Below are positions 2,050 to 63,518 of a DNA stretch of 64,000 nucleotides, in pieces. Origin of the DNA: Vulcanimicrobium alpinum. GTDB lineage: Bacteria > Vulcanimicrobiota > Vulcanimicrobiia > Vulcanimicrobiales > Vulcanimicrobiaceae. The notes beneath the pieces are model-generated. The model ran no database searches and was not told the DNA's origin. It was given only the letters and a program-made list of their open reading frames with translations. Made by a program: the position numbers and the translations under genes. The stretch's first letter is position 1, and each line of letters opens with the position of its first letter. The stretch is from contig NZ_AP025523.1 of the NCBI RefSeq assembly GCF_027923555.1, forward strand, positions 1,364,001-1,428,000, read 5' to 3'.

Positions 2050-3045
2050 ATGCCGAAGAGCGGCGAGATGGCGGAAGAGCGCGCGGAGCCCAAGGTCGTC
2101 CTGCTCGTCCGCCTTCTCAGCGCGATCGACGAAGGGCGCTTCAGCTTCGAAGAGCTGAAGGACCAGATCGGCGAGGAGAAGGCGCCCAGCACGCGTACCC
2201 TGCGCCGCTACCTCTCGGTGCTCTCGGATGCAGGCTTTCCGTGGTTCTTCGACCGCGCGAGCGGGACGTACCGGTTCGCCGAGGGCTACAGCCTGCGCCG
2301 GCTCAACCTCTCGCAGCGCGAGCTGCTGGGGCTGGTCACGCTCAAGCGCCTCGGGTCGTCGCTGGGCGGGACGTTTGCAACCGCGATCGAGGAAACGACC
2401 CAGAAACTGCTTCGCTCGAGCGACCGGCGCACCGAAGTTTCGGTCGAGACGACGTCGCTGGCGATCCGCTTCGGCGACGTTGCGATGGACGACCACGTCG
2501 AGCGCGTCTTCGAACAGCTGCAGGCTGCCGAGCGCGACCGGCGGCGCGTCGGGTTCGGCTACACCGACAAGAACGGCGCGCGCACCCAGCGCCGCGTCGA
2601 TCCGTACGGCTTCATCGTTTCGTCGGGGCGCATCTACCTCGTCGGCTACGACCACAACCGTACAGATATGCGCGTCTTCGCAGTCGACAACGTCTCCGAC
2701 GTTGCGATAACGCCGCAGACCTTCGAGCGGCCCGCCGATTTCAACCTCGAGGCGTACGGCGCGAACTCCGTCAGCGGCGTGCGCGACGCCGGCACGCTCG
2801 GCGCAGTGACGGTGCGGTTTTCGCCGGTGGTCGCCAAGGCCGCCGCGGCCCGGCGCATCGCACGCGATCAGCAGGCTGCCCGTCGCGAAGACGGCTCCGT
2901 CGAGATCACCTACCGGGTCGTCGATCCGCTCGAGATCGTTCGCTTCTCGCTGGGCTGGGGCGCCGAGGCCGAGGTGGTCGCCCCGCCGGAGGCGCGGGCC
3001 GCCGCGGCCGAGCTCGTGCGCGCCGTCGCCGCGCGCTACGGCTGA
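2050..3045 (+). CDS. HTH and WYL-domain transcriptional regulator
   Basis: A 331-residue cytoplasmic regulator. Residues about 1-75 form a winged helix (LLSAIDEGRFSFEELKDQI, then TRTLRRYLSVLSDAGF), and residues about 165-225 form a WYL domain (VGFGYTDKNGARTQRRVDPYG and GRIYLVGYDH). A WCX-like C-terminal extension (VTVRFSP through VVDPLEIVRFSLGWG) follows. WYL proteins usually sense nucleic acid or small ligands and act as repressors or activators of DNA-metabolism or transport genes. It is transcribed away from the solute-binding protein gene, which it may control through the inverted repeats at 1968-2010. Confidence 0.9.
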   Translation: MPKSGEMAEERAEPKVVLLVRLLSAIDEGRFSFEELKDQIGEEKAPSTRTLRRYLSVLSDAGFPWFFDRASGTYRFAEGYSLRRLNLSQRELLGLVTLKRLGSSLGGTFATAIEETTQKLLRSSDRRTEVSVETTSLAIRFGDVAMDDHVERVFEQLQAAERDRRRVGFGYTDKNGARTQRRVDPYGFIVSSGRIYLVGYDHNRTDMRVFAVDNVSDVAITPQTFERPADFNLEAYGANSVSGVRDAGTLGAVTVRFSPVVAKAAAARRIARDQQAARREDGSVEITYRVVDPLEIVRFSLGWGAEAEVVAPPEARAAAAELVRAVAARYG

Positions 3046-3221: not shown

Positions 3222-3740
3222 ATGCCACACTTAGGTTCGCGTCTGGTCGCGCTCGCGGCCTTCCTCTTGGCCGCCGTGCCGATGCACCCCGCCGCGGCGG
3301 CACCGCCGGCCGGCCAGCCCGTCGACGGCATTCGCTGTGATTCGATGGAGGGCGCCGTGCTCCACATCCACCAGCACGTCGCGGTGTTCGACCATGGCCG
3401 GCCGGTGCCGATCCCCGAAGACCTCGGACGGCCGCTCGCGGCGCAATGTCTGTACTGGATCCACACCCACACGCCGGACGGGATTATCCATGTCGAGTCG
3501 CCGAGCTTTCACACCTTCACGCTCGGCAACGTCTTCGACATCTGGGGTCAGCCGCTCTCGGCGACCAACGTCGCCGGCGCGCGGCCGAACGCGGGCGAGC
3601 GCGTCGTGACGTGGGTCGACGGCCGCCGTGTCGGCGGCAGTCCGCGCGCGATCGAATTGACCGGGCACCTCGAGGTGACGATCGAGGTCGGTCCGCCGTA
3701 TCGCAAGCCGGCGCCGTTCACCGCCTGGAACGGCAACTGA
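3222..3740 (+). CDS. exported histidine-rich protein of unknown function
   Basis: A 172-residue protein with a clear signal peptide (MPHLGSRLVALAAFLLAAVP, cleavage near AAAA-PPAG). The mature part carries GIRCDSMEGAVLHIHQH near residue 50 and YWIHTHTPDGIIHVESP near residue 87, which is several closely spaced histidines plus Cys and Glu. I recall related, uncharacterised secreted proteins in Actinobacteria with the same HIHxH and HTH-DGIIHIESP blocks. The histidines suggest metal or haem binding outside the cytoplasm, but no function is established. The start at 3222 is chosen because it begins the signal peptide; an ATG at 3141 is also in frame. Confidence 0.75.
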   Translation: MPHLGSRLVALAAFLLAAVPMHPAAAAPPAGQPVDGIRCDSMEGAVLHIHQHVAVFDHGRPVPIPEDLGRPLAAQCLYWIHTHTPDGIIHVESPSFHTFTLGNVFDIWGQPLSATNVAGARPNAGERVVTWVDGRRVGGSPRAIELTGHLEVTIEVGPPYRKPAPFTAWNGN

Positions 3741-3757: not shown

Positions 3758-3913
3758 ACGCGACGAAGCCGGGAGGCGCGAACCTTCCGGCTTCGATGTG
3801 CGCGGGATTTGGTGTCGGCGGCAGCGGCTCCGGCGGGCTTGCGCCTTTCGTGATCCGTGGGGCCGGCGAGCTTCTCGCCGCTCGCGCGTCGACGGCATCG
3901 CTGCGGTCGACGT
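3758..3913 (-). ncRNA. putative small RNA, tandem unit C
   Basis: Predicted from promoter to terminal hairpin, about 155 nt, and the shortest of the three units. The conserved hairpin box lies about 27 nt after the expected start (3886-3861); it can form CGGCGAG-AAG-CTCGCCG. The 3' hairpin is followed by TTCGTCGCGTTC, the same sequence that follows the unit B hairpin. Reading frames across the box are not conserved between units, which argues against a peptide. Confidence 0.5.
3764..3795 (-). terminator. terminator-like hairpin of unit C
   Basis: The stem CGAAGCCGG/CCGGCTTCG has nine perfect pairs, then one A-C mismatch and an inner AGG/CCT stem. There is no tight T-run (TTTT only about 14 bases beyond on the minus strand). 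It could also end transcription of the plus-strand gene stopping at 3740. Confidence 0.55.
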
Positions 3914-3919
3914 GCGTGC

Positions 3920-3948
3920 ATCGTACGAAGATCGCCGCGCGGCTGCAA
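3920..3948 (-). promoter_or_regulatory. sigma-70-like promoter of unit C
   Basis: The minus strand reads TTGCAG (3948-3943), 17 bases, then TACGAT (3925-3920). The same two hexamers with the same spacing occur in unit B. Confidence 0.6.
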
Positions 3949-4104
3949 GTACCAGCGCCCGCTTCTCCACAAGAAACTTGCGTTGTGCACGGCGATCCAC
4001 GCAGATTCCCAGTTTTTCACAGCCCGAACGGTCGACCGCACTGAGCTCGTCGATGCGCCGCCGCACCTGACGCACGGAACGTTCGCTGCGTTAATTCCGC
4101 ACGA

Positions 4105-4314
4105 ACGCGACGAAACCGCTTCGGTTGCCCGACGCGGTTTCGGTCAGCACGAGAGTCGAGATGCGCACGTCCTCGCCGGCGTGAACCGGCCATTACGGCG
4201 TCGAACTTCGGGTCGACGGTCCGGCAACGTGTCATCGACCTTGCGGCGGACGTCACGCGCTAACTCGCCGGCGAGCCTCTCATCGCTCGCACGTCATCGT
4301 GTAACCGATGACGT
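4105..4314 (-). ncRNA. putative small RNA, tandem unit B
   Basis: About 210 nt. The expected start falls at the base of a perfect nine-pair hairpin (4291-4299 with 4306-4314, ACGTCATCG/CGATGACGT). The conserved box at 4290-4266 differs from units A and C, yet its stem is largely kept through one G-U pair and one mismatch, which is what an RNA-level constraint would leave. The unit ends in the hairpin at 4111-4142. Confidence 0.55.
4111..4142 (-). terminator. terminator-like hairpin of unit B
   Basis: The outer stem CGAAACCGC/GCGGTTTCG has nine perfect pairs. It encloses a G-A mismatch and an inner TCGG/CCGA stem with a GCAA loop. This is the same two-storey design as the unit C hairpin with different sequence, and it is followed by the shared TTCGTCGCGTTC. 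Confidence 0.55.
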
Positions 4315-4320
4315 GCAAGC

Positions 4321-4349
4321 ATCGTACGAAATCGATCGACGCACTGCAA
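4321..4349 (-). promoter_or_regulatory. sigma-70-like promoter of unit B
   Basis: The minus strand reads TTGCAG (4349-4344), a 17-base spacer, then TACGAT (4326-4321). Confidence 0.6.
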
Positions 4350-4483
4350 GAGCAGAAGCCGCAAACTCACATGCCGTCCACAAGAAAATGCAGTTATCCC
4401 CGAAGTTCCCCAGCATCTCCGCACAATTCACAGTGCGTTGCGCGATTCGGGCCGCGCTTCTACGGGCTGGAGCGTGACGTGCG

Positions 4484-4682
4484 AAAAGGCCGTCGCACTT
4501 TCGCGCGACGGCCTCCTGCACGAGAATCGCTATGCGCATCACGTCGCCGATTTGCATCAGCCACATGAACGTCGAACTTCGTACGGCCCGGTCGCTTGTG
4601 CCGCTTCGGCTTTCGCCGTCGCGTCGTTCGATTCGGACCGGCGAGCTTCTCGCCGCTCGCCCGCCGGCGTTGCTGCCAGCGT
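4484..4682 (-). ncRNA. putative small RNA, tandem unit A
   Basis: About 200 nt, the unit nearest the end of livF. The conserved box at 4660-4637 starts about 22 nt after the expected transcription start and forms CGGCGAG-AAG-CTCGCCG. The unit ends at a classical intrinsic terminator. A long basic reading frame can be drawn through it, but it is not kept in unit B. Confidence 0.55.
4487..4514 (-). terminator. intrinsic terminator of unit A
   Basis: The stem AGGCCGTCGC/GCGACGGCCT has ten perfect pairs and an eight-base loop, and is followed on the minus strand by TTTT. It is the best terminator of the three units. Confidence 0.7.
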
Positions 4683-4688
4683 GACGTC

Positions 4689-4717
4689 ATCCTAGCGCGC
4701 CGCGGTGCGGCGCGCAA
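4689..4717 (-). promoter_or_regulatory. sigma-70-like promoter of unit A
   Basis: The minus strand reads TTGCGC (4717-4712), 17 bases, then TAGGAT (4694-4689). The spacer lies within a perfect GCGCGCCGC/GCGGCGCGC palindrome at 4695-4715, a likely regulator site. Confidence 0.6.
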
Positions 4718-4820
4718 GGGAGTTTTCCGCCTGGCGCTCGCTTCTCCACAAGAAAGTTGCGTTGTCCACGGCGATTCGCCGGTTTCCACCGCAGTCGCCA
4801 GCGTTTCGCAAGTGCGCGCG

Positions 4821-5528
4821 TCAGCCGCCGAGATACGCGGCGACGACCTCGTGATGCGTCGCGAGTTCCGCGCCGGTGCCGCTGAGAACGATGCGTCCGC
4901 GTTCCATCACGTACGCGCGGTCGGCGAGCGCGAGCGCCCGGCGCGCGTTCTGCTCGACGAGCAGGATCGACGTCCCGCGCGCACGTTCGTCGGCGACGAT
5001 CGTGAAGATCTCGTCGACGAGTTTCGGCGCGAGCCCCATCGAGGGTTCGTCGAGCAGTAGTGCTTTGGGCCCGATCGCGAGCGCGCGCGCGATCGCGAGC
5101 ATCTGCTGTTCGCCGCCGGAGAGCGAGCCTGCCGCGACGTTGCGGCGCGTGCGCAGGATCGGGAAGCGCGAGAAAAGGTCGGGGATCAGCGCGTTTCCCT
5201 CGGCGCCGCGGACGGCGGCGGCGACGAGGAGGTTCTCCTCGACGCTCATCGCCGGCAGCATTCGCCGTCCTTCGGGGACGAGCACGAGCCCCGCCCGGAC
5301 GCGGGCGTGCGACGGCGCGTGCGTGACGTCGCGGCCGTCGAAGGTCACCGTCCCGGAGCGCGTGCGGTGGATCCCCGCGAGCGTCATCAGGAGCGTGGTC
5401 TTGCCGGCACCGTTCGCGCCGACGATCGCGCACAGCGTCCCCGCGTCGAGTGCGACCGCGACGTCGTGCAGCACTTCGATGTTGCCGTACCCTGCGTGCA
5501 GGCCGCTCGTCGCGAGGACGGCGCTCAT
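4821..5528 (-). CDS. livF: branched-chain amino acid ABC transporter ATP-binding protein LivF
   Basis: A 235-residue cytoplasmic ATPase that drives the Liv importer together with LivG. Walker A is GANGAGKTTLL near residue 36, the ABC signature is LSGGEQQMLAIARAL, and Walker B is ALLLDEPSMGLAP followed by the H-loop region of LivF-type proteins. The ATG at 5528 overlaps the livG stop as ATGA. Longer in-frame starts upstream only add out-of-family sequence. It is the last gene of the operon; the tandem noncoding units begin about 45 bases after its stop codon. Confidence 0.96.
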   Translation of the reverse strand: MSAVLATSGLHAGYGNIEVLHDVAVALDAGTLCAIVGANGAGKTTLLMTLAGIHRTRSGTVTFDGRDVTHAPSHARVRAGLVLVPEGRRMLPAMSVEENLLVAAAVRGAEGNALIPDLFSRFPILRTRRNVAAGSLSGGEQQMLAIARALAIGPKALLLDEPSMGLAPKLVDEIFTIVADERARGTSILLVEQNARRALALADRAYVMERGRIVLSGTGAELATHHEVVAAYLGG

Positions 5529-61469: not shown

Positions 61470-62097
61470 TTGAAGAAAGTTTACCCCAAACCAGATCCCG
61501 TTGCCAAGCCCGAGCGCGACTTTTCAGTCGAACTGGACGAATTGTGCCGGGCCAAAGTCGCCGAACTCGTCCAATCGTACCTCGAAGCGGAGGTCGATGA
61601 GTTACTCGGCCGACTCCGTTACGAACGCCGAGACGGCAAGCGCATTGGTTTCCGCGATGGGCACGACCCCGAGCGGATGGTCACCGCGAGCATCGGCCCT
61701 ATCGCGATCCGCCGTCCGCGCGTTCGCGGCGTTGCGCACGAGTCAGCGCTGATCCCCAAATACCGACGTCGGCTTCCGTCGATCGACAAGACGATCCATC
61801 AGCTGTGGATCGAAGGCCTCGCGCATCGCGATTTCGAGCCGACGCTGCGCGGATTACTCGGCGCAGAAGCTCCGCTTTCGGCTTCGACGATCGCTCGCGT
61901 GAACGCCGAGTTCGGCGCGGAGTACGACACGTGGAAGAAACGCCGCCTCCCCCCGTGTCAAGATAGAGTGGTACCGGTAGCATAGGGAGTTTTTTGTACA
62001 ACGTTCGTCGCAGCAGCAGAGCTGTGGATAACGGGGATACTGTGGAAAACATCCGGAACGATGCAAAGCACGCGGGGGCGAGAAAGTCCTGCAACAG

Positions 62098-62517
62098 ATG
62101 CAGTCCTCGAACGGAACCGTTTCAACGGAAATCAAGGCAACCAGTTCACCCCAAAAACCTCAGCGACGTCGGTTCTCCGCCGCCGAGAAGCTGCGCATCG
62201 TGCGCGAGGCTGATGCGCGTCCAGCCGGCACGATCGGAGCGTTTCTCCGGCGCGAAGGTATTTACTCATCGCAGCTCTATGCCTGGCGAAGGCAGCGCGA
62301 TCAAGGCGACCTCGATCCAGGTGCGGTGCGCCAACGTGCAAAAGCCAAAATGCAAGCCGACGAGGTTGCGCAGCGGCTCAAAGAACTCGAGCGGGAAAAC
62401 CGGAAACTCCGTCGCCAGTTGGCGCGCGCCGAGCTCATAAACGATATCCAAAAAAAATTTGCGGGGCTCCTGGGCGTCGATCTGGAGAGCCCCGAGACGA
62501 ACGAGAACGCAGAATGA
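62098..62517 (+). CDS. IS3-family transposase OrfA (HTH and leucine zipper)
   Basis: A 139-residue DNA-binding subunit. The helix-turn-helix is RRRFSAAEKLRIVREADARP, then EGIYSSQLYAWRRQ. A coiled coil with Leu/Arg heptads (AQRLKELERENRKLRRQLAR) follows at about 95-115. It recognises the IS ends. It overlaps orfB by four bases (ATGA), so orfB is reached by coupling and not by an evident slippery site. GTG/ATG choice: ATG at 62098. Confidence 0.9.
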   Translation: MQSSNGTVSTEIKATSSPQKPQRRRFSAAEKLRIVREADARPAGTIGAFLRREGIYSSQLYAWRRQRDQGDLDPGAVRQRAKAKMQADEVAQRLKELERENRKLRRQLARAELINDIQKKFAGLLGVDLESPETNENAE

Positions 62518-63518
62518 GTGCGGCGCTGGAACTTGCCCACGAGATTCCGCAGCGCGCGTTGTGCACTGCAGCGGGCATCAGCCGCTCGACGCTGCGGCGC
62601 CGCCTAAACGGCACGCCGGAACGACTTCCGTCCGTGATCTCGCGCCGGCGCTCGAGAAGAGCACTGAGCGAACACGAGCAAGCTGAGGTGCTCGCGGTGC
62701 TGCATGGCGAGCGGTTTGCCGATCGCGCGCCGGCGACGATCCACGCGACCTTGCTGGACGAAGGTATCTACCTGTGCTCGGTGAGCACGATGTACCGCCT
62801 GCTGCGAGCAAACGCGGAGGTGCGCGAACGTCGCCGTATTGCACGTCATCCGGAGTACCGTAAGCCCGAACTGGTGGCCACCGGTCCGCGTCAAGTTTTC
62901 TCGTGGGATATCACGAAGCTGCGCGGCCCGCACCCGGGTGAGTGGTTCTCGCTGCTGGTGATGCTCGACATCTTCAGCCGGTTTGTCGTCGGCTGGATGC
63001 TCGTGCATCGGGCCAACGCCGAACTCGCACGGCACTTCATCGCGCAGACGCTGGAACGTGAAGGCATCCAGCCCGGGCACGCGATCGTTCACGCCGATCG
63101 CGGCGCGGAGATGACGGCGCAACCCGTGTGCGCCCTGATGGACAAGCTCGGCGTCGTACGTTCGCACAGCCGTCCGCACGTTAGCGACGATAACCCCTTC
63201 TCGGAGTCCCAGTTCCGCACGCTGAAGTACCATCCCGAATTCCCCGATCGATTTGGGTCGTTTGAGCACGGGCACGATTTCGTTGGTGAGTTCATGACCT
63301 GGTACAACAACGAGCACCGGCACTCCGGAATCGCGATGCTGACGCCGGCAATGGTGCATCACGGCCAGGCGGACCGCGTGCTCGCCGCCAGACACGACGT
63401 GATGCTCGCGGCTTACCGCGCCAAACCGGAACGATTCATCGGCGGATCGCCAAAGCGGATCGTGTTACCGCCCGCGGTGTGGATAAATCCGCCCGCTCAC
63501 GACGGGGTCGCCGTGTAG
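62514..63518 (+). CDS. IS3-family transposase OrfB (DDE integrase)
   Basis: A 334-residue catalytic subunit. An N-terminal HTH_21-like region (APATIHATLLDEGIYLCSVS, then TMYRLLRAN) precedes the integrase core. The DDE triad is visible in VFSWDITKLRG, AIVHADRGAEM and PFSESQFRTLKYHPEF. The C-terminal TWYNNEHRHSGIAMLTPAMV matches IS3 proteins. No internal stop, so it is probably functional. Confidence 0.94.
   Translation: MSAALELAHEIPQRALCTAAGISRSTLRRRLNGTPERLPSVISRRRSRRALSEHEQAEVLAVLHGERFADRAPATIHATLLDEGIYLCSVSTMYRLLRANAEVRERRRIARHPEYRKPELVATGPRQVFSWDITKLRGPHPGEWFSLLVMLDIFSRFVVGWMLVHRANAELARHFIAQTLEREGIQPGHAIVHADRGAEMTAQPVCALMDKLGVVRSHSRPHVSDDNPFSESQFRTLKYHPEFPDRFGSFEHGHDFVGEFMTWYNNEHRHSGIAMLTPAMVHHGQADRVLAARHDVMLAAYRAKPERFIGGSPKRIVLPPAVWINPPAHDGVAV

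Follow-up and report, generated by a model that had tools for sequence, protein, structure and literature searches.

A tandem array of pseudoknotted non-coding RNA genes with DnaA-box-like promoter sites in Vulcanimicrobium alpinum, and a related RNA across its family

Downstream of livF in Vulcanimicrobium alpinum, three RNA units lie in tandem on the minus strand (4800-3760 of the window, by which we mean the whole 64,000-nucleotide stretch of DNA that was analysed; the livF reading frame ends at 4821), each of them a local form of a structured RNA that is found across the family (Table 1). The recurrence of the array, the RNA fold, the pseudoknot, the promoter layout, the synteny and the non-coding character are established by computation; transcription is inferred. 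Our preferred reading, to which we give a slightly better than even chance, is that the locus encodes a trans-acting structured RNA that is transcribed under the control of DnaA, the protein that initiates DNA replication, that has been amplified and has diverged in this genus, and that acts through its folded core. Each unit would be an independent gene for a non-coding RNA of ~200 nt with its own promoter, and the array would be an amplified, diverged version of an RNA that is mostly kept convergent with a WYL-WCX regulator gene in the family. By computation only, the locus meets the definition of a sibling small RNA (sRNA) array, i.e. at least two homologous non-coding RNA genes with their own promoters. 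A preliminary description of this DNA had placed the tandem units behind the Liv operon, an arrangement that we confirm in the window and find in the same order across the genus. Three points go beyond that description: each unit is a local version of an RNA found across the family, its box hairpin forms a pseudoknot, and the upstream boxes match DnaA boxes.

Table 1. Features of the array and its surroundings (positions in the window)
Feature	Position	Strand	Remarks
RNA unit A, first of array	4481..4683	-	R1 match 164.2 bits, full length 1-204
RNA unit B, middle	4107..4315	-	R1 match 168.4 bits, full length
RNA unit C, last of array	3760..3914	-	R1 match 71 bits, 51-position gap
P2 hairpin, unit A	4640..4661	-	loop CGAGAA (~4652-4647) pairs with UUCUCG (~4526-4521)
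P2 hairpin, unit B	4270..4291	-	loop UGAGAG pairs with CUCUCG (~4155-4150)
P2 hairpin, unit C	3865..3886	-	partner strand largely lost
Terminal hairpin, unit A	4487..4514	-	inverted repeat in sequence; helix 8 of alignments
Terminal hairpin, unit B	4110..4142	-	inverted repeat I8; helix 8 of alignments
Terminal hairpin, unit C	3763..3795	-	inverted repeat I10
Promoter, unit A	4689..4717	-	TTGCGC-N17-TAGGAT
Promoter, unit B	4321..4349	-	TTGCAG-N17-TACGAT
Promoter, unit C	3920..3948	-	TTGCAG-N17-TACGAT
Phased GTGGA / DnaA-box-like sites 5' of unit A	4740..4800	-	end in TTTCTTGTGGA (4755-4745); exact TTNTCCACA site
Phased GTGGA sites 5' of unit B	4372..4432	-	end in TTTCTTGTGGA
Phased GTGGA sites 5' of unit C	3961..4021	-	end in TTTCTTGTGGA; exact TTNTCCACA site
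WYL-WCX transcriptional regulator gene	2050..3045	+	Pfam WYL 4.2e-20, WCX 8.3e-13; convergent with array

All the parts that had previously been listed for the three units are present, namely the TTTCTTGTGGA box, a TTGCNN-N17-TANGAT promoter, a GCGAGC..GCTCGC box hairpin and a terminal hairpin. The predicted RNAs, of ~203 (A), ~209 (B) and ~155 nt (C), start with CACG at the 5' end and stop just past the long terminal hairpin. A covariance model of the units (R1) scores 168 and 164 bits at units B and A, and no more than 21 bits anywhere outside the array. Some 50 nt are missing from unit C, among them hairpin P4 and the greater part of the pseudoknot strand; this loss of the core is seen in unit C of this genome, the last units of other genomes retaining it, and unit C may be decaying.

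The RNA structure is well supported. Eight helices are supported by an alignment of 39 units, one of them a pseudoknot that joins the loop of P2 to the strand before the terminal hairpin. The proposed core runs from a 5' hairpin, P1, through P2, whose loop would pair near the 3' end, a variable P3 and P4 to the terminal hairpin. From inspection of the sequence, several hairpins are capped by GNRA-type loops. When a hand-written structure of 55 pairs is applied to 34 units aligned by sequence alone (A1), 91% of cells are paired and 34 of the 55 pairs have changed on both sides, a level reached by 0 of 500 shuffles. On the 39 units aligned to R1 (A2), an alignment biased towards the modelled helices, 40 of the 55 pairs are doubly changed with pairing kept (207 cells), and here too 0 of 500 shuffles come as high. 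The pseudoknot is absent from R1, so the fit cannot have shaped its count on A2: 92% paired across the array units, with three pairs doubly changed. The altered box of unit B, whose hairpin had been noted to keep most of its pairing through a G-U pair, fits the pseudoknot, its loop UGAGAG pairing with CUCUCG where other units pair CGAGAA with UUCUCG. The covariation check that the preliminary description had proposed for a structured RNA family has been run, and upholds it.

Conservation of the fold bears on the main alternative, which we regard as unlikely, namely that these are base-pairing sRNAs whose exposed variable segments pair with different mRNAs, the pseudoknot being only a scaffold for stability. 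The tandem siblings here do diverge in their middle (P3) parts, there is precedent for sibling sRNAs whose targets are partly redundant and partly not (PMC4211561), and AbcR siblings control ABC transporters, the array here lying behind the Liv ABC operon. However, conservation is highest in the parts that pair or form the pseudoknot, and duplex energies against the starts of LivJ1, LivJ2, WYL and minC were unremarkable (mean z -0.3 to -1.3; four targets only). Under our preferred reading of a structured RNA acting through its core, we infer that the RNA most likely functions by binding a protein through that core, and that the position-specific units may be specialised.

A DNA search of the genus identified a similar array in each of its ten other genomes. 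Arrays with promoter and box, whose recurrence had been named in advance as support, are hence present in 11 of 11 genomes, with 2-4 units per genome (some contigs are broken). The order LivF, array, WYL-WCX regulator is conserved, in most cases accompanied by a small gene for a secreted protein. In the window, this last gene (3222-3740, plus strand) encodes a secreted protein (172 aa) that has no Pfam match, and it is conserved in its place between the WYL gene and the array; by eye, one further genome (G015) has a similar gene at the matching place, without the RNA there. A second genus has two units in each of two genomes, on both sides of a hydrolase-like gene; the gene between the two RNA units resembles alpha/beta-hydrolases (L126 7966-9285 and L049). 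The genome of the window, a single contig of 3,508,363 bases, has reaction-centre genes; strain WC8-2 is described as having 3.50 Mbp, 68.4% G+C and phototrophy (PMC9758169). We rejected a link between the array and phototrophy, since within the genus the reaction-centre genes are found only in the window's genome.

A tree built from the 39 units joins the last units of every genome, second genus included, in one clade, weakly supported (0.59) and with support of 0.81 within the genus alone; the remaining units fall into further groups, and unit C of the window sits among the last units from all the other genomes. The distance from box to -35 element is 16-17 nt in last units and 27-28 nt in most others, a difference kept across the genus. 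Given this clade and the kept distances, the siblings are probably old and position-specific. Local duplication, proposed from the window alone, fits the tandem homologous units; judged from these sequences, and with weak support, the array does not look like a recent duplication, the position-specific subtypes appearing older than the split of the two genera.

R1 alone gave no match outside the two genera, and the restriction to these genera that R1 by itself suggested was wrong: a search beside the WYL gene revealed diverged relatives. At least 20 further genera of the family have, in the matching place, a related RNA of ~200 nt that is convergent with the WYL gene and has hairpin order, pseudoknot and promoter in common with the array units. 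Of 149 genomes from the phylum, a second model (R2), from 17 family-wide sequences (A3; 37 of 65 pairs doubly changed), matched 59; these represent 20 genera, all of one family. The window's genus gave no R2 match at the 0.001 threshold of this phylum search. In fetched array loci there are weak full-length R2 matches (18-26 bits; at 4108-4315 for unit B) whose ends coincide with those of the R1 units. Chance matches score similarly in G+C-rich DNA, so it is the coincident ends and not the score that count as evidence. The RNA is thus found in 72 of 99 genomes of the family (13 by R1 and 59 by R2).

The pseudoknot recurs in the family-wide type. Other genera typically have the P2 loop ACGUAU and the strand AUACGU before the terminal hairpin, and G035 has CCGUAA with UUACGG. 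On 49 sequences of this type (A4), 50 of 59 modelled pairs are doubly changed, and the pseudoknot, again outside the model, is paired in 91% of cells with four pairs doubly changed. Its sequence differs wholly from the CGAGAA and UUCUCG of the array type, and the pairing is retained. That the two types are homologous is a strong inference from the coincident ends, synteny, promoter distance and hairpin order, and similarity in sequence counts for less in it than gene neighbourhood, promoter and architecture. Many of the genomes matched by R2 have a further copy at another site, with promoter and core kept and different neighbours; from such copies in unrelated places we infer that the RNA acts in trans. 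By eye, second copies in L219, L221 and L226 lie near a gene for quinolinate synthase (NadA) or an OPT-type transporter. A genome of a different genus (G011) carries the family-wide RNA as a tandem pair of its own (L210:1141-1699).

All three units of the window have a -35/-10 spacing of 17. The spacers had been described as identical, which is correct for this spacing and incorrect for the distance from box to -35 element, which is 27 (A), 27 (B) and 17 (C), the last being one helical turn shorter. From the end of the TTGTGGA box to the RNA start there are 61-63 nt family-wide and 51-52 or 61-62 nt in arrays, again one helical turn (four values of 27 nt come from the search pattern matching the -35 region). 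In 44 of 46 family-wide promoters a second TGTG lies exactly 2 bp past the first 9-mer. Roughly half to two thirds of the 46 also have a TGTGNATAA-like box, which is TTATNCACA on the opposite strand, 20 bp upstream. The boxes 5' of dnaA in these genomes are TTGTCCACA, TTATCCACA, TTTTCCACA and TTCTCCACA, and a pair of boxes separated by 2-3 bp is the arrangement that DnaA favours in E. coli (PMC11317965). Boxes at a fixed distance and paired in this way, as would be expected of a DnaA-regulated promoter, are found in the family-wide type; the array promoters have boxes, which are degenerate and lack the 2-bp double box, with steps of 9-10 and 20 bp instead. Exact TTNTCCACA never occurs as the TTGTGGA box of the 46 family-wide promoters. 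It is present at 6 per kb in array promoters against a background of 0.01 per kb (380 kb of genome), a figure that is not independent because the array units are related. The complete motif is almost restricted to arrays, and a search of viral contigs with one exact motif gave no match. A GTGGACAAC..TTCYYGTGCA..TGTGGA element is conserved 5' of a MinC-like gene in six genomes (L128, L127 and L145-L148), and is a possible DnaA target. In the window, TTATCCACA/TTTTCCACA sites (~62031-62049) lie just upstream of two frames (62098-63518, plus strand) that resemble an IS3-type transposase pair.

That DnaA binds the fixed upstream boxes of these promoters is our best guess from their sequence and has not been shown; control by DnaA is likely, but inferred. 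If DnaA does bind them, transcription would follow the replication state. Against our preferred reading, there are no expression data, no target emerged among the four candidates, the boxes of the arrays are degenerate, unit C lacks part of the core, and another factor, even the neighbouring WYL protein, could be the box binder. The last possibility can be put in a fuller, doubtful form, in which the WYL-WCX regulator binds the boxes and controls the RNA, and is perhaps controlled by it, the likeness to DnaA boxes being coincidental. The WYL gene is indeed the constant neighbour, in this genus and in other genera, but its orthologues are present in 93 of 99 family genomes, including genomes without an RNA match by either model, second RNA copies distant from WYL retain the boxes, the box consensus and 2-bp spacing match DnaA, and the short gap between LivJ1 and WYL has no such box. 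Being nearly universal in the family, the WYL gene was also discarded as a predictor of the RNA.

It is very improbable that the locus matters mainly as DNA, as a DnaA-titrating box cluster like datA with incidental transcripts. The array, at 1.37 Mb, does hold dense DnaA-like boxes at a great distance from dnaA (match at position 1184) and the boxes beside it, but the extensive RNA-level covariation and the fixed phasing of box and promoter require selection on the transcript. A replication origin at the array was rejected, as dnaA is at the contig start with canonical DnaA boxes adjoining, and a weak GC skew does not favour the array. It is scarcely credible that these short, structured units with terminator-like hairpins serve as riboswitches or leaders or as type I antitoxins, or that they are a diverged form of a known RNA such as 6S. 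Each unit is followed by the promoter of the next or by the convergent gene, leaving no downstream gene for a riboswitch or cis-acting leader, no small ORF is conserved on either strand, and the weak 6S candidate is located away from the array. The reading frames, already reported as unconserved, have mixed anchor phases, and shuffled units contain longer closed ORFs than the real ones; on these grounds we rejected a coding or antisense peptide and a type I toxin. Rfam 15 gave no match in the window at the gathering threshold, in agreement with the earlier statement that no known RNA class was recognised, and relaxed Rfam searches with the array and its relatives gave only chance matches far below threshold.

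Comparison with known systems places the array among sibling RNAs. CsrB/RsmZ-type RNAs are multi-copy and work by binding, and so sequestering, a protein; the array RNAs, for which we propose protein binding, resemble them in both respects, but on inspection of the sequence show no repeated GGA-in-loop motif, their core being a pseudoknot. 6S RNA is a structured, trans-acting RNA of about 180-200 nt, sometimes present in two copies. The array RNAs are similar in size and structured nature to 6S RNA (RF00013), but their ends are not paired with each other, their topology is P1-P2-pseudoknot-terminal hairpin, and RF00013 has no match at the array. Candidates for 6S below threshold (25-30 bits) were seen in three genomes of the family (G000:C1:3397618-3397797 on L150, and on L149 and L151), and may represent a diverged 6S RNA in the family. 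The genes for OmrA/OmrB, PrrF1/PrrF2, AbcR1/AbcR2 and the csRNAs are likewise related RNA genes in a row, with their own promoters and partly diverged (PMC4211561); unlike these tandem siblings, the array RNAs are ~200 nt long, with a conserved pseudoknot, long helices, no recognisable seed and sites that fit DnaA. Promoters of the E. coli DnaA regulon have paired DnaA boxes 2 bp apart 5' of genes (PMC11317965), whereas the target here is a non-coding RNA and the array promoters use 9-10 and 20-bp steps. In the literature that was searched, no description of the RNA family and no link from DnaA to a non-coding RNA was found. We conclude that, as sibling RNAs, the array members belong to a known kind, and that what is new is a pseudoknotted, DnaA-boxed, family-wide RNA.

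The phylum has very few cultivated species. Our analysis adds an RNA family with good support that is missing from Rfam 15, and the array illustrates how one RNA gene can give rise to position-specific siblings with fold and promoter phasing retained. The promoters offer a direct, testable link between DnaA and a non-coding RNA. We suggest, tentatively and at somewhat less than even odds, that direct DnaA control of a pseudoknotted, trans-acting RNA couples replication initiation to other cell functions, the array of one genus being a set of specialised siblings.
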